A stretch of 9,934 nucleotides of DNA from Candidatus Tectimicrobiota bacterium (GTDB lineage: Bacteria > JACPSX01): assembly GCA_016193065.1 (NCBI GenBank), contig JACPSX010000281.1, positions 1-9,934 of the forward strand. Reading direction: 5' to 3'. The notes beneath the pieces were generated by a model. It saw nothing but the letters and a program-made list of their open reading frames with translations. It did no database searches and was not told the origin of the DNA. Each line of letters starts with the position of its first letter. Positions within the stretch are counted from its first letter, which is position 1. Shown one piece after another: positions 321-9,934 of the stretch. The position numbers and the translations under genes were made by a program.

Positions 321-405
321 ATGAAACAAAACAGCCACCGAGTCCCTCAAACGTGCTATAGAAGCGGTGTTGAAACATTTCTATGCACACTCGCGAGGAG
401 GCTCG

Positions 406-1779
406 ATGGCTACAGACTGTATACCCCAACTGACCTTCCGATTCCAGGAAAATTCCAAGCCCGTGGTGGCCACCTTCGACATGGCTCACGCCAGTTCGGA
501 TGGAGGGGCCGTCTTGCTCAAAAGCTTGGACGCCCGGCTGAAGCTGACCGAGCAGATGGCCTCGTGCCTGACCGACCAGCGACAGCCCGGCAAAGTTCAG
601 CATGAGCTCTTGGAACTCGTTCGGCAACGCGTCTTTGGACTCGCCTGTGGGTATCCCGACGGCAACGACGCCGCCCGCCTGGCCGACGATCCGATCCACA
701 AGCTCTTGGTGGGGCGCGATCCTCTGAGCGGTCCCGCGCTGGCCTCCCAACCCACGCTGTCGCGCTTCGAGAACCAGATGGGCCGCAAGGATCTCTACCG
801 GTTGAGCCTGGCTCTGGCGGATCGGGTGATCGTGCACCATCGGCGGCGCCTGAAGGGCAAAGCCCGGCGGATCACCATCGACCTGGATCCGACCGACGAC
901 CCCACTCATGGCCAGCAGGAGTTCACCTTCTTCAACGGCCACTACGACACCTGGTGTTATCTGCCCGTGGTGGCCACGGTGAGCTTCGACAAAGAGCCCG
1001 AGCAGTATCTGGTGGGCGTGGTCCTGCGGCCCGGCAATGCCTCGGCCAAGCAGGGAGCCATCGGGATCTTGCGGCGGCTGCTCTCCAAGCTGCGGACGGC
1101 TTTCCCCCGGGCCCGACTGCGGGTGCGCCTGGACGGAGGGTTTCAGGACAATGGGATCATGGATTTTCTGGAGGCCGAAGGGGTCGAGTACTTGATGGCG
1201 CTGGCCAGCAATGCGCGCCTGGAGAAGCGCGCCCGGCGGCTTTTGGGCACGGCCCGTCGGCTCTCGCGGGAGACAGGCCAAAGCGCCCAGCTCTACGGCG
1301 AGACCCGCTACGCGGCCCAGAAGTGGTCCCACAAACGGCGAGTCATCCTGAAGGCCGAGGTGGTCCGGCATCCGGGCCGCGACCCCCGGGACAATCCCCG
1401 CTTCGTGGTCACCAACCTGCCCTACAAACCCGAGACGGTATATGGGATCTACCGCCAGCGGGGGGATGCGGAGAACCGGTACAAAGAGCTGCATGCCGGG
1501 CTGGAGCTGGACCGCACGAGTTGTCATCGCTTCCTGGCCAATCAGTTCCGGGTTCTGCTCACGGCAATGGCCTATGTTCTCCTGCAGGAGCTGCGGCGGC
1601 AGGCCCGGGGGACGGACTGCGCCGACGCTCAGGTCAGTACCCTGCGCGAGCGCCTGTTCAAGCTCGCCGTCTGGGTCGAGCGCTCGGTGCGGCGCATCGT
1701 CCTGCATCTGCCGGTCTCCTTTCCCTGGCTGCGCAGCTGGCGGCAGATTGCCTGTGCCGTGGGAGCTTCTCCCGGATAA
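406..1779 (+). CDS. IS1380-family transposase
   Basis: This is a 457-residue DDE transposase that cuts and joins the ends of the IS1380 element. The start is the ATG at 406, preceded at five bases by a strong GAGGAGG site (395-401). An upstream in-frame GTG at 367 has no such site and would only add 13 residues. The first catalytic Asp lies in the motif ITIDLDPTDD (residues 156-165, Asp159 or Asp161). The second is Asp243 in VRLDGGFQDN. The catalytic Glu is Glu356 in RGDAENRYKELHAG, a very typical IS1380 signature. The C-terminal region has the usual hydrophobic, Arg-rich helices (LLTAMAYVLLQELRR). No stop or frameshift interrupts it, and the length matches the family, so it looks functional. 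Codon use is strongly GC-rich, unlike the AT-rich flank to its left, as expected for a mobile gene. Confidence 0.93.
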   Translation: MATDCIPQLTFRFQENSKPVVATFDMAHASSDGGAVLLKSLDARLKLTEQMASCLTDQRQPGKVQHELLELVRQRVFGLACGYPDGNDAARLADDPIHKLLVGRDPLSGPALASQPTLSRFENQMGRKDLYRLSLALADRVIVHHRRRLKGKARRITIDLDPTDDPTHGQQEFTFFNGHYDTWCYLPVVATVSFDKEPEQYLVGVVLRPGNASAKQGAIGILRRLLSKLRTAFPRARLRVRLDGGFQDNGIMDFLEAEGVEYLMALASNARLEKRARRLLGTARRLSRETGQSAQLYGETRYAAQKWSHKRRVILKAEVVRHPGRDPRDNPRFVVTNLPYKPETVYGIYRQRGDAENRYKELHAGLELDRTSCHRFLANQFRVLLTAMAYVLLQELRRQARGTDCADAQVSTLRERLFKLAVWVERSVRRIVLHLPVSFPWLRSWRQIACAVGASPG

Positions 1780-1949: not shown

Positions 1950-1970
1950 GGGTGTGCGACAAATTTGTGG
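1950..1970 (+). repeat. ISKra4 left terminal inverted repeat (21 bp)
   Basis: It begins GGGTGTGCGACAAATTTGTG plus one more G and is identical to the reverse complement of 3760-3780. The GGG tip is typical of ISKra4 elements. The internal ACAAATTTGT is self-complementary. Confidence 0.9.
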
Positions 1971-1980
1971 ATCCCAGGGG

Positions 1981-3282
1981 CTAGCCGATGGAGCGGGCCT
2001 CCCAGAACTCCTCCCAGCGGTTGCTGAGTTGGCAGCAACGCAGAGCGAGGATGGCGTTGGCACCCCGGACAGTCCACCGCATGCCTGATTGCTTGAGCCG
2101 GTGCCCGACAATGGTCTTGCACCCCGCCTCGACAACGCCCGATCCGACGAACAAGCCCTGGCTCCGGAAGCGGGCATAGCGCATCCGTTCCGCGTTGGTC
2201 TGGAAGTAATCGATCGCCTTGCGGACCTCCTCCTTGGCCTTCTCCTCTCGAGGTCGTAGACGGCGCATGGAGGCGACCACGGCCTCGACCTCCCCGGCGT
2301 CCAGTTGCTTGCAGCGGGCCGCCGCCCATTCCTTGGACTCGGCGCTGGCCGCTCCGTAGACGATCTTGCTCAGCGTGGCCAAGTGCTCCCGGGCGTGGTA
2401 GAGGTCGACGATCTGGATCGCCCCGTGGAAGTGCTCGTCGGCGATCGCCCAGATCCACGGCGCCCCATCTCCCAGCACGATCACCTTCTCAGCCCGCGTG
2501 AGGCCCCGCCGCACCGCCTCGGCGTAGAGGCGGCAGCCGAACAACTCGGCCGTCTCGATGGCCCCGACGTAGGTGGTAGACCCCTCGTCGCGCACCGGAT
2601 GCCCCTTCTCGTCGAGCCTCGTCTGGGTGAAGACGCATCCGAGTTTGGCCTCGCGGGTCTTGGCCTTGCCGCTTTCGTCCTTGCCCGGGCGCCCTTCGGT
2701 CTCCTGCGGGACCATCGGCACCCCCGTCCCGTCGAGGGCAATGTACAGCTTCGCTACCGACCTGAGCGGCACCACCTTGCCCGACAGAGCCAGGGCCTGC
2801 TCCCCTTGGGAGATCCTCTCCACCTGTGCGCCGAGGGCTTCCGAGAGTCGCTCTACGGCCTTGGTTTGGACCACGATGCCCGCCAACTCCTCCAGGTCTT
2901 CCCGTCCTTCCTCGAAGGGTTCCTTGGCGCCGACGCGGCCCATCATGCGACGCACGCCGGGACTGAAGGACGTTCCCACAATGTCCAGATCTTGATCCTT
3001 GGGAATGATCCCCGCTTGGCACCCCTCACAGCGGTAGTAGGCCCGTTGGACTTCCACAGCAGACAACACCGTCGTGAGCCGCTTGCTACGGTAGTCGACA
3101 AACTGGGCTTGGTGACCTTGGCCACAGTCGATTCGTGCACCGCGATGGCCTCCAGCGTCGGAGTTGATCAGTTTCTCCAACAAGATGCCACCCATCTGGT
3201 GCATGGACGAGCGAATCGCCCGCTCGAGGGCTTCTAAATCCAACTGCCCCAAGGCCTCCCGATCCCTCAGGGCCCGGGTCAC
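1981..3282 (-). CDS. ISKra4-family transposase (downstream ORF, probably expressed as a frameshift fusion)
   Basis: The ORF has 433 codons from a GTG at 3282. It is a DDE transposase. Asp184 lies in YIALDGTGVPM, Asp272 in VLGDGAPWIWAIADEHF, and the catalytic Glu is Glu385 in GSGVVEAGCKTIVGHRLKQS, followed by the hallmark GMRWTVRGANAILALRC. Cys53, Cys85 and Cys88 form a zinc-finger-like set in the N-terminal third. The GTG overlaps the TGA of the preceding ORF as GTGA, but the nearest Shine-Dalgarno-like GGAGG is about 26 bases upstream, too far to use. The frame stays open upstream of the GTG and encodes a sensible NLAASFGEEIRQEIDALV segment back to an A8 run. The protein is therefore probably made by a -1 frameshift from the upstream ORF, giving a fusion of about 569 residues. 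Translational coupling is the alternative. Confidence 0.92.
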   Translation of the reverse strand: MTRALRDREALGQLDLEALERAIRSSMHQMGGILLEKLINSDAGGHRGARIDCGQGHQAQFVDYRSKRLTTVLSAVEVQRAYYRCEGCQAGIIPKDQDLDIVGTSFSPGVRRMMGRVGAKEPFEEGREDLEELAGIVVQTKAVERLSEALGAQVERISQGEQALALSGKVVPLRSVAKLYIALDGTGVPMVPQETEGRPGKDESGKAKTREAKLGCVFTQTRLDEKGHPVRDEGSTTYVGAIETAELFGCRLYAEAVRRGLTRAEKVIVLGDGAPWIWAIADEHFHGAIQIVDLYHAREHLATLSKIVYGAASAESKEWAAARCKQLDAGEVEAVVASMRRLRPREEKAKEEVRKAIDYFQTNAERMRYARFRSQGLFVGSGVVEAGCKTIVGHRLKQSGMRWTVRGANAILALRCCQLSNRWEEFWEARSIG

Positions 3283-3689
3283 GAGAGCGTCGATTTCTTG
3301 CCTGATTTCCTCCCCGAAGGAGGCCGCGAGGTTTTTTTTACCTCCGGGCCTGCCGCTGGCACGGACCGCAGTTCACAAATCTCTTCATTGATCTCGATGA
3401 GTCGGTGGCTTAACTCTTGGAATCGGTGAAAAGTCTCTACCTCCCGTCTCAGCTTGGTCAGGGCAGGGCCGGAGCGAAACTGGCGGGTCTGGGTCTTCCC
3501 CTGCACCTTGCGGGTAAAGGTGAAATAGGGCCCATGTCCCGGGTGGCCCGGTTCCTTGCAACAACAGGTAGACTTCCCACACGTCAGATACTGTTCCACG
3601 ATGCTCCCTCGTCGCATATCCCCCAAGGCTTCAATCTCCCTTAAGGTCTGAGCCCGTTGCCGCTCTAAGGTCTCCTGGGTGTGGGCCAT
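3279..3689 (-). CDS. DUF6788-type accessory ORF of the ISKra4 element
   Basis: This 136-residue protein starts at an ATG at 3689 with a strong GGAGG six bases upstream. The N-terminal third is helical and charged. A cysteine/histidine cluster follows (Cys37, Cys42-44, His49 and His52 in CGKSTCCCKEPGHPGHGPY), with aromatic and basic residues after it, like a small zinc- or nucleic-acid-binding module. This arrangement is what I know as DUF6788, often found directly before ISKra4-type transposases. The last 17 residues (after Lys119) are a low-complexity basic tail that looks like read-through of the wrong frame. The biologically relevant end is probably the A8 run, where ribosomes can slip into the transposase frame. 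Its exact role in transposition is not known to me. Confidence 0.8.
   Translation of the reverse strand: MAHTQETLERQRAQTLREIEALGDMRRGSIVEQYLTCGKSTCCCKEPGHPGHGPYFTFTRKVQGKTQTRQFRSGPALTKLRREVETFHRFQELSHRLIEINEEICELRSVPAAGPEVKKTSRPPSGRKSGKKSTLS
3309..3345 (-). promoter_or_regulatory. Putative programmed -1 frameshift site (A8 run plus hairpin)
   Basis: On the minus strand eight A residues (3339-3332) give the heptamer A_AAA_AAA in the reading phase of the upstream ORF (codons GTA AAA AAA ACC). Slipping back one base makes the next codon AAC (3333-3331) and enters the transposase frame with no stop. Nine bases further on, CCTCC (3323-3319) pairs perfectly with GGAGG (3313-3309) around the loop TTCGG, a UUCG-like stable hairpin at the usual stimulatory distance. 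A GGAGGT lies directly before the run. Transcriptional slippage on A8 would give the same fusion. Confidence 0.7.
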
Positions 3690-3726
3690 AGAATCCTCCT
3701 TTATCTTAAAGTCTTAATACTCTAGG

Positions 3727-3755
3727 ATTCTACGGCAACCCAACTCTTTTGTCAA
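3727..3755 (-). promoter_or_regulatory. Promoter of the ISKra4 genes
   Basis: On the minus strand a perfect -35 TTGACA (3755-3750) is followed after exactly 17 bases by TAGAAT (3732-3727), five of six matches to the -10 consensus. It lies just inside the right inverted repeat and about 40 bases before the first ORF, the normal place for an IS promoter. Confidence 0.7.
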
Positions 3756-3759
3756 CTAC

Positions 3760-3780
3760 CCACAAATTTGTCGCACACCC
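3760..3780 (-). repeat. ISKra4 right terminal inverted repeat (21 bp)
   Basis: Its reverse complement is identical over all 21 positions to 1950-1970. Confidence 0.9.
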
Positions 3781-4096: not shown

Positions 4097-4555
4097 ATGA
4101 GGAAGGACAGTCTGAATCGCCTGGTGGCTGGCAAAATCCAGCCCTCCAGAAAACGCATCGTTGAGTGGCCCGAAGGGATTCGCTTTCTCATTTCCCACGA
4201 GAACAAGACTGTGCGGAAGTTCATTAAGGGCTGTCTTAAAGGTATGGGGTGTCCTACCCTCCTTGAATTGGTTCCTACCGGAGGAAATATCTTGATTACA
4301 GTGGTTCAAGAGCAGCCTCACGTGTTGATCTGCAGCGGCGAGACTCCAGAGATGAAGGACTGGAGCCTGGTGAGATCGATCCGCAATCACCCGGAGGTCA
4401 GCAAGACGAAAGTCATCGTTGTCAGCGGGGATTCAGCCAGAGAGTCCATTCTCGGAGCGGTGAAGGCCGGGGTCGATGACTATGTCATTCTTCCGTTTTC
4501 CGCCTCTAACTTTGAGGAACGGGTTTGGGTCTTATTTGCCAGAGGATTGGAGTGA
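4097..4555 (+). CDS. Stand-alone CheY-like pseudo-receiver protein 1
   Basis: This 152-residue single-domain protein has a receiver-like pattern from about residue 28 to 150: strand RFLI, helix VRKFIKGCLKGMG, strand HVLIC, then TPEM, strand VIVVSG, helix SILGAVKAGVDDY and the end LPFS. The residues that make a receiver work are replaced. The acidic pair is His34-Glu35, the phosphoacceptor position is Ser80 (in ICSGETPEM), the switch position is Ser110, and the conserved Lys before PF is Leu132. It should therefore not be phosphorylated by the usual route and is probably a protein-interaction module. There is no output domain, signal peptide or membrane segment. The ATG at 4097 was chosen because it aligns residue for residue with gene 3 (both 152 residues). 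A TTG at 4073 would add 8 residues. The ribosome site is weak. It is roughly 60% identical to gene 3 by eye. Confidence 0.85.
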   Translation: MRKDSLNRLVAGKIQPSRKRIVEWPEGIRFLISHENKTVRKFIKGCLKGMGCPTLLELVPTGGNILITVVQEQPHVLICSGETPEMKDWSLVRSIRNHPEVSKTKVIVVSGDSARESILGAVKAGVDDYVILPFSASNFEERVWVLFARGLE

Positions 4556-4717
4556 CATGGCGGGGGAGTTTTTCGAGCTGGGGCTCAGCGAAACTGGGGT
4601 TCGCCGCTCTCATCGCCAGCCCGTGAAAATGGGCAAACCGGATACCGGAAAGTAACATTTTGTGAACCCCAGGGGGCGGATTGGGTCGGCCGGATAAAGC
4701 CCCCCCATGGTTCCCCC

Positions 4718-4757
4718 CTTTAGAGGCGCTGCGGCGTGACGATAAGTATCTCTGGAA
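4718..4757 (+). repeat. Leader repeat, copy 2 (upstream of the second receiver gene)
   Basis: It is the partner of 3918-3957. In this copy the equivalent frame reads LEALRRDDKYLW and stays open into the second receiver gene, whereas copy 1 ends in TAA after DDK. No similar block was found before the third gene. Confidence 0.55.
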
Positions 4758-4791
4758 AACAAGATGTTATGGAGAAAGCGGTCTGAATTCT

Positions 4792-5262
4792 ATGAAAACT
4801 GATCTGAAGGAGAAAGCGGGAGCGCCGGCTGACTTTATTCCCTCCAAAGCCGTCCGGCCCGTCCCCAAAAATCTTCGCTTTCTTGTGGCTTACGAGAATC
4901 CCAGTGTTTGCCGGACTATCGCCTCCACTCTGAAAGACATGGGGTTTTCATACATCGAGGTGCGGGGCGAAACGGAAAACCTCTACAAGATCCTCAAGGC
5001 GGACGGGATCTCCTGCCTAATCTGCGGGACTAAGGCCATGGAACGAAATCGACAAGAACTCTTCAGGATGATCCGGTCCGACGAAGACTTGAAACATCTC
5101 ATCCTGGTCGTTGTCGACGGAGGCTCGAAAAAAGAAAAAGTTCTGGAGGCCCCTCCAGCCGGCCTTGACGTCTACATCTCGGTTCCGTTTTCTATCCGAC
5201 ACTTCGAAGAGAGGATTCGTAAGATCCTGGTGGAAAAATCCCCGGGAAACCGGGCAGCATAG
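4792..5262 (+). CDS. Stand-alone CheY-like pseudo-receiver protein 2 (divergent)
   Basis: This is a 156-residue receiver-like protein and the most divergent of the three. The motif RFLVAYEN falls at residues 29-36, the same positions as in genes 1 and 3 when the ATG at 4792 is used, which supports this start over an in-frame TTG at 4681 (193 residues). The acidic pair is Tyr34-Glu35 and the phosphoacceptor position is Gly79 (in LICGTKAM). The following TPEM segment is lost, the switch position is Asp109, and the Lys before PF is Val131. Key features kept are the hydrophobic strands (LRFLV, CLICG, LILVVVD), the AGLDVYISVPF end and the final helix HFEERIRKILVEK. It probably has an unphosphorylated fold used for binding. 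The gap of 236 bases before it contains the leader repeat but no other gene. The ribosome site is weak (GGAGAAAG, far from the ATG). Confidence 0.8.
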   Translation: MKTDLKEKAGAPADFIPSKAVRPVPKNLRFLVAYENPSVCRTIASTLKDMGFSYIEVRGETENLYKILKADGISCLICGTKAMERNRQELFRMIRSDEDLKHLILVVVDGGSKKEKVLEAPPAGLDVYISVPFSIRHFEERIRKILVEKSPGNRAA

Positions 5263-5378
5263 TTGAGCCTGCGGTGGAACAGAAGAAAGATCATCCGTGC
5301 ATGGTGCTTGGGAACTGGAATCCTGAATTTGTGCGGGGATGAGAACGTTAGCGGCCGGAGATCTTCATGTAAAGACTC

Positions 5379-5411
5379 GGCGACACGGATGAGGCACCGG
5401 TTTCGGTCGCC
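5379..5411 (+). promoter_or_regulatory. Stem-loop just before the third receiver gene
   Basis: GGCGAC (5379-5384) pairs with GTCGCC (5406-5411). After a bulged A (5385) the stem continues as CGGA (5386-5389) with TTCG-side bases 5402-5405, one pair being G-U, around a 12-base loop. It ends 10 bases before the GAGGG ribosome site at 5422-5426. It could be a leader structure controlling translation, but there is no direct evidence of that. Confidence 0.3.
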
Positions 5412-5430
5412 ACTGTAAAGTGAGGGCTTT

Positions 5431-5889
5431 ATGATCAAGGATGGTTTTAGTTCCCTGGTGGCTGGGAGAGCTCAGCCCCGAAAAAACTCCACCGTTCGCT
5501 TGCCTGAAAAGATTCGCTTTCTCATCGCTCACGAGAACCCCTCTGTGCGGAAGCTCATTCGGGGATGTCTGAAGAATATGGGGTTCACCACGGTTCTTGA
5601 TCTGACTCCTACTGGAAACATCTTTCGTACGCTCGTCGCAGAAAAAGCCCACGTCCTGATCTGCAACGGGGAAACCCCCGAGATGAAGGAATGGGAGCTG
5701 GTGAAACTGCTTCGTAACCATCCGGAGGTCTGTAAGACGAAGGTCGTCATTGTCAGCGGGAATTCCGACAAGGAATCAATTCTGGGAGCGGTGCGGGCCG
5801 GCGTCGATGACTATCTGATAATTCCGTTCTCAGCCTCCGCCTTGGAGGAGAGGATCCGAGCCTTGTTCGCCGTCAAAGCCGGCGGTTAG
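5431..5889 (+). CDS. Stand-alone CheY-like pseudo-receiver protein 3
   Basis: This 152-residue protein is the close paralogue of gene 1, with shared N-terminal LVAG-(K/R)-x-QP, RFLI-x-HEN, GETPEM, NHPEV, KESILGAVRAGVDDY and PFSAS. It has the receiver fold pattern but inactive-site residues. The acidic pair is His34-Glu35, the phosphoacceptor is Asn79 (in ICNGETPEM), the switch is Ser109, and the Lys before PF is Ile131. A good GAGGG site (5422-5426) four bases before the ATG fixes the start and also supports the homologous starts of genes 1 and 2. Asn at the phosphorylation position is the classical inactive substitution, but here Ser, Gly and Asn are used across the three proteins, so lack of phosphorylation rather than a particular residue seems to be conserved. 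No output domain is present. It faces metF convergently across 79 bases. Confidence 0.85.
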   Translation: MIKDGFSSLVAGRAQPRKNSTVRLPEKIRFLIAHENPSVRKLIRGCLKNMGFTTVLDLTPTGNIFRTLVAEKAHVLICNGETPEMKEWELVKLLRNHPEVCKTKVVIVSGNSDKESILGAVRAGVDDYLIIPFSASALEERIRALFAVKAGG

Positions 5890-8894: not shown

Positions 8895-9934
8895 CAGGCG
8901 AACACCTCCTTGACCTTGTGGAGCCCTCTCACCAGGGCGTCGATCTCTTCCTTGGTGTTATAGAAGGCCAGAGAGGCCCGGGCGATGGCCGGTACTCCGT
9001 AGCGCTGCATGAGGGGCATGGCGCAGTGATGGCCCGCGCGTATTGCAACCCCCTCGTGATCCAGGATCGTGCCGATGTCGTGCGGGTGAATGCCATCCAG
9101 CACGAAAGACAGGACCCCGGCCTTCTCCTTGGCAGTGCCGATGATTTTCAGGCCCGGGATGGCGGAAAGCGCTTCCGTTGCGTAGGCGAGCAATTCCTGC
9201 TCGTAGGCGGCGATTCGTTCCATTCCGATTCCGTTCAGGTAGTCGATGGCCGCACCGAGCCCGATGCCGCCCGCGATATGGGGTGTTCCGGCCTCGAACT
9301 TGTACGGCAGCGCGTTGTAGAGGGTCTTCTCGAAGGTGACCGAGCTGATCATATCGCCGCCGCCCTGGTATGGGGGCATGTCTTCCAGCAAACCGGCCTT
9401 GCCGCAAAGGATGCCGATGCCGGTCGGGCCGAACAGCTTGTGACCGGAAAAGATGTAGAAATCGCAATTGAGCTCCCGGACATCAACCGCCAGATGGGGT
9501 ACCGCCTGGGCGCCATCGACCAGAACGGGAACGCCCCGGTCGTGGGCCATCTGGGTGATCTGCTTGACCGGGTTGATCGTGCCCAGGGCGTTCGATATGT
9601 GAACGATGGAGACCAGCTTTGTTCTTGGATTCAGCAGTTTCTCGTATTCATCGAGCAACAACTCGCCGGCGTCGTTGATAGGGATGACGCGCAAAACAGC
9701 ACCCTTTTCCTCGCACAACATCTGCCAGGGGACGATGTTGGAGTGATGCTCCATCACGGACAGGATGATTTCATCCTGCGCTTTGACGGCCGTCCTGCCG
9801 TAAGTCCGGGCGACGAGATTGATGCCCTCCGTAGCGCCGCGAACGAAGATGATTTCCCGGTCCTGCGCAGTGTTTAGAAACCGCCTCACCTTGGCGCGAG
9901 CGGCTTCATAGTCCTGGGTGGCCTTTTCGCTCAG
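8894..9934 (-). CDS. sufS: Cysteine desulfurase SufS (partial, N-terminus beyond the window)
   Basis: SufS is a PLP enzyme that turns cysteine into alanine and a protein persulfide, the sulfur source for Fe-S assembly. 346 residues are visible and the frame stays open to the window edge, beginning [19 protein letters not shown]. About 60 N-terminal residues are missing compared with the usual length near 406. Motifs are [30 protein letters not shown], the PLP lysine in [11 protein letters not shown] (visible residue 166; codon 9439-9437), and the active-site cysteine in [11 protein letters not shown] (visible residue 304; codon 9025-9023). The short RAGHHC loop is that of group II SufS rather than IscS/NifS. 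It overlaps sufU by one base. Whether sufBCD lie further upstream cannot be seen. Confidence 0.96.

Follow-up and report, generated by a model that had tools for sequence, protein, structure and literature searches.

Stand-alone CheY paralogs without phosphorylation residues form a probable lineage-specific family in a Candidatus Tectimicrobiota genome

The window, a stretch of 9,934 nucleotides that makes up the whole of its contig (C242), carries three genes (A, B and C) for stand-alone receiver domains with altered phosphorylation sites. Together with two further copies elsewhere in the genome (D and E), they are best explained as a lineage-specific family of CheY paralogs. Both the origin of the family from chemotaxis CheY and its loss of phosphorylation are well supported. 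Since all five copies are without phosphorylation chemistry, they probably act on the flagellar motor, or on another partner, in a different way.

Table 1 Features of the window and related loci in the host genome
Feature	Location	Strand	Remarks
DDE transposase (DDE_Tnp_1_4)	367-1779	+	Pfam match; presumably IS1380-like
Insertion sequence	1950-3780		apparently intact
UPF0236 transposase	1981-3282	-	in the insertion sequence
DUF6788 gene	3279-3689	-	end overlaps transposase start by 4 nt
Promoter-like motif TTTAGAG-N12-GACGATAA	3919-3945	+	precedes A; -10 and spacing resemble sigma-28, -35 matches poorly
Gene A	4097-4555	+	152 aa; stand-alone pseudo-receiver, CheY paralog
Motif TTTAGAG-N12-GACGATAA	4719-4745	+	precedes the ATG of B by about 46 nt
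Gene B	4792-5262	+	156 aa from ATG 4792; most divergent copy; PP in α4
Gene C	5431-5889	+	152 aa; stand-alone pseudo-receiver
Paralog D	C34:4938-5387		full-length, intact
Paralog E	C35:3-254	-	cut by contig end, open
Flagellar cluster before E	C35		order fliR, flhB, flhA, flhF, flhG, fliA, fliK-like, flhB-C-like
Weaker motif copy (L123)	C250:4774-4800	-	2 mismatches
Ordinary CheY	C192, frame ending at 9485
Unrelated pseudo-receiver (L085)	C25:4222-4551		180 aa

Each of the three ORFs in the window is intact and encodes a single receiver domain, with Response_reg (PF00072) as the sole Pfam match, and they follow one another on the plus strand as an earlier note on this DNA had described. Scores of 45.5 bits (C), 35.7 bits (D) and 35.1 bits (A) exceed the Pfam cutoff of 30.2 bits, whereas B scores 19.7 bits. 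Gene B is the odd one out, combining this weak score with an Asp at the position of T87 and a PP pair in helix α4, and it may have another role. The family of three proposed in that note is correct for the window but too small for the genome (2.9 Mb in 294 contigs, 86.3% complete, 0.95% contamination), which encodes five members. tRNA genes lie near D but nowhere in the window, and insertion at tRNA genes was rejected as the source of the copies. A receiver fragment on contig C43 was ruled out as the missing half of E because its sequence differs.

Key residues were assigned by alignment to E. coli CheY. The equivalents of D12/D13 are H/E in A and C and Y/E in B, D57 corresponds to S80, G79 and N79 in A, B and C, T87 to Ser, Asp and Ser, and K109 to Leu, Val and Ile, in agreement with the residue numbers and substitutions given in the earlier note. 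D has the H-E pair, Ser at the phospho-site, Ser at T87 and Met at K109; E has the H-E pair and Asn at the phospho-site, and its sequence ends before the remaining sites. Across the family, the first acidic residue is His or Tyr, the phospho-Asp is missing in 5/5 copies and Lys109 is missing in A-D (the truncated E does not reach this site). Trp58, beside the phospho-site, is lost in all, and Tyr106 and the Pro-Phe are kept in A-D. The Cys that the earlier note saw before the site in its three genes is there in A, B and C, and also in D, but it is Val in E; a redox- or ligand-sensing role built on this Cys is therefore unsupported as a family feature. With the acidic pair, the phospho-Asp and the Lys all altered, the proteins do not qualify as phosphorylatable response regulators; they are recognised as receivers yet lack the phosphotransfer residues, the phospho-Asp in particular, as pseudo-receivers (ALR domains) do. 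Asp57 is kept in 34 of the 40 receiver domains read from the host genome, and the six without it are A-D and two unrelated proteins. As a separate observation, the unrelated pseudo-receiver L085, whose key sites read HN / K / V / C / E, follows an Asp-type regulator at a distance of ~1.3 kb.

Structure prediction and HMM searching, both proposed in the earlier note, returned a receiver in each case, from AlphaFold models of B and C and from the Response_reg matches of A, B and C (that of B below the cutoff). The model of C has a mean pLDDT of 78.6, with a core of about 90, and that of B has a pLDDT of 71.9, with α4 uncertain where the sequence has PP. Both models adopt the (βα)5 receiver fold, with TM scores of 0.75-0.89 to target against CheY. 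The top match for both in the fold search was CheY in the flagellar C ring (8wiw), and their matches include CheY-FliM peptide complexes. Similarly, a profile of the five members found chemotaxis CheY as the best match among PDB chains (best E 1e-23). A tree of 124 receivers groups the four full-length copies A-D together with a support of 0.98; their clade sits on a long stem and falls within a CheY-like group that is itself weakly supported. Thus, the simplest history is a single ancestral loss of phosphorylation followed by duplication, which is strongly supported. The fold, the phylogeny and the four intact full-length ORFs uphold the earlier picture, in which the family arose by duplication and abandoned phosphorylation while retaining the receiver fold. 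None of the grounds for refutation listed in the earlier note came up, in a search set without homologues from close relatives.

The copies are about 23-27% identical to the host's own ordinary CheY. Relative to the CheY-to-CheY baseline, the best-kept segment of A-D is α4-β5-α5, the FliM-docking face (identity 0.32-0.39 vs 0.63), compared with β1-β2 (0.19-0.26 vs 0.65), although this trend is modest. Likeness to chemotaxis CheY (the host copy and that of E. coli) extends over fold, length, best PDB matches, Tyr106, Pro-Phe and much of α4-β5-α5. In contrast, the family has lost Asp57, Asp12, Lys109 and Trp58, has Glu in place of Asp13, and has an N-terminal tail of about 25 residues that is poorly conserved and modelled with very low confidence.

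Searches of other organisms, a set without any further genome of the host phylum, detected no family member. Among 84,980 named genomes, a first scan was empty and a second brought up nothing but CheY-like receivers of the ordinary kind and other response regulators; matches in 386 sampled genomes were, as far as inspected, ordinary receivers. A mobile or viral origin was rejected, with no relative in IMG/VR, and the listed plasmid and phage matches were distant response regulators at about 26-30% identity. One of the other genomes encodes a stand-alone CheY-like protein (L012, G054:C145) with an EN acidic pair, Glu at the phospho-site and the Lys kept, possibly a phospho-mimic.

Paralog E lies directly downstream of a flagellar export/switch cluster and on the same strand, with FliM and a FliN-like gene further upstream; several gene names in this cluster are assumed from our own reading of the sequences. 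The A-B-C array has no flagellar neighbour. The earlier note's statement that no partner gene adjoins the array is true of the window only. Flagellar genes in the host genome comprise a flagellin end, FlaG, FliD-like, and export and switch genes (L077 on C35 and L124 on C276). The host FliM begins MGQVLSQEEVDALL, its N-terminal peptide is MGQVLSQEEVDALLRG, and the docking peptide LSQEEVDALL within this start matches the CheY-binding motif of FliM, LSQxEIDxLL (PMC5677366).

A core, TTTAGA-N13-GACGATAW, is common to the leaders of A, B and E, and each pairwise alignment of these leaders scored above all 500 shuffles, while the leaders of C and D are without the motif. The exact sequence TTTAGAG-N12-GACGATAA occurs at two genome sites, before A and before B. 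The consensus of sigma-28 (FliA) promoters is TAAAGTTT-N11-GCCGATAA. Measured against this consensus (the host flagellin gene is truncated at a contig end and provides no promoter for comparison), the -10 element GACGATAA agrees at 7/8 positions and the N11 spacing fits in A and B, but the -35 fits poorly. When the pattern was relaxed to a looser sigma-28-like form, the genome gave four exact matches, and 3/4 of these lie in the leaders of A, B and E. Tolerating one mismatch yields 21 sites for the real pattern and 20 for the reversed one, so only exact sites carry weight. A weaker copy on C250 has a matrix score of 19.0 (the next site reaches 14.4) and precedes, by about 330 nt, a gene pair for a histidine kinase and a CheY-like receiver-TPR protein. 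Structured RNA in the leaders was rejected: the A, B and E leaders fold no better than shuffles, and an Rfam scan gave no riboswitch or structured RNA match of note.

No CheW domain (a search that also covers CheA and CheV) and no chemoreceptor signalling domain was detected in the 86%-complete host genome, and both searches were positive in seven of the control genomes. A single che cluster could be missing from such an assembly; the chance loss of every chemoreceptor is less likely. The ordinary CheY on C192 has all active-site residues and lies outside any che cluster seen.

We propose, at roughly even chances, that the family members are CheYs which work without phosphorylation at the docking site on FliM, either by themselves or in competition with the ordinary CheY, with protein level or a ligand as the control. 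An ancestral CheY copy would have changed its acidic pair to His/Tyr-Glu, Asp57 to Ser/Gly/Asn and Lys109 to a hydrophobic residue, and the altered copy would then have been duplicated. The copies may bind the CheY-docking peptide at the FliM N-terminus or compete with ordinary CheY there. The amount of protein made from the shared flagellar-type promoter, or else a ligand or partner, would determine their effect, and control would not come from a CheA kinase. Motor binding, sigma-28 control and competition are what we infer here, and the PP in α4 of B, on the FliM-binding face, and its Asp at T87 count against the motor as target. A kinase, a chemotaxis or polar protein, or a ligand had been suggested as partner; the flagellar side is now favoured over the others by the descent from CheY, the position of E after the export cluster and the three sigma-28-like leaders. 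A further step is conceivable but rather doubtful, namely that a flagellated lineage dropped CheA, CheW and chemoreceptors and kept the FliM docking site, with a motor steered or braked by amplified unphosphorylatable CheYs under expression or ligand control.

The pseudo-receivers might instead be decoys or adaptors for a histidine kinase, a receiver-TPR protein or a polar protein, leaving the motor untouched. Protein-protein contacts are believed to account for part of pseudo-receiver regulation (PMC12632262), and the weaker motif copy lies near just such a kinase and receiver-TPR pair. This copy is, however, one of few weak matches and may be there by chance, and the CheY descent, the place of E behind the flagellar cluster and a FliM that still has its docking motif all point to the motor; we regard such a role as somewhat unlikely. 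Control by a ligand or second messenger, bound by the basic N-terminal tail or by the remodelled pocket (His-Glu-Cys-Ser), would have a parallel in the Cle proteins of Caulobacter, CheY-like FliM binders that depend on c-di-GMP rather than on phosphorylation (PMC5677366). The tails carry 4-7 Lys/Arg in 26 residues, and the genome has a GGDEF response regulator as well as a PilZ protein on the flagellin contig. On the other hand, the chains end shortly after α5 and have no C-terminal arginine-rich peptide, the tail varies between copies and has very low model confidence, the pocket Cys is Val in E and the leaders lack a riboswitch by Rfam, which leaves this kind of control improbable.

The copies could also be decaying CheY duplicates, nearly or wholly functionless, that outlasted a lost chemosensory array. 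The missing CheW-domain proteins and chemoreceptors, the strong divergence of B and dN/dS values of 0.3-0.5, which are not very low, are in keeping with decay. By the NG86 method, dN is 0.27 and dS 0.91 for A-C (dN/dS about 0.3-0.4), and dN is 0.41 and dS 1.10 for A-E (dN/dS about 0.37-0.39), in a comparison within one genome whose other pairs are largely saturated. These values suggest purifying selection on the two pairs, though not strong. Further points against decay are the four full-length intact ORFs at two loci, the open reading frame of the fifth copy, the grouping in one clade with a common altered motif (R29, F30, L31, E35 and N36 are invariant in 5/5 copies) and the leaders conserved in A, B and E, so that, judged from sequence, the family does not appear to be plainly decaying, and we consider this explanation very improbable.

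The Cle proteins and the pseudo-receivers or ALR domains are the closest precedents of the family. As in Caulobacter, several CheY-like paralogs freed from CheA phosphorylation occur in one flagellated cell. FliM docking was shown for CleA and CleD (PMC5677366) and is only proposed for the present family, and CleA keeps the conserved phospho-acceptor Asp, which is not needed for its activity (PMC5677366). Because both this Asp and the arginine-rich c-di-GMP peptide at the Cle C-terminus are absent, the sequences indicate that the family is not Cle. Pseudo-receivers make up about 4-6% of receivers and share with the family a receiver fold by HMM, the absence of the phospho-Asp and an altered active site (PMC12632262, PMC4395418). 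RitR has Asn at the phospho-site, as do members of the family. Well-studied ALR examples are mostly domains of larger proteins. The present set differs in being stand-alone, derived from CheY and in five copies, and such a set in one flagellated genome is unusual. How bacterial pseudo-receivers are activated and inactivated has been described as a mystery (PMC12632262). Here a compact natural family has an obvious ancestor in CheY, a likely docking partner of known structure in the FliM peptide, and a cell that may be without the kinase, which makes CheY action on the motor with no phosphorylation at all a directly testable question.

The window also holds mobile elements. The insertion sequence has perfect 21-bp inverted repeats (GGGTGTGCGACAAATTTGTGG), and a simple scan found no terminal repeats around the DDE transposase. 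The insertion sequence is flanked by a 9-bp target duplication (CAGCCATCT), and this arrangement suggests that DUF6788 serves the element as an accessory gene.
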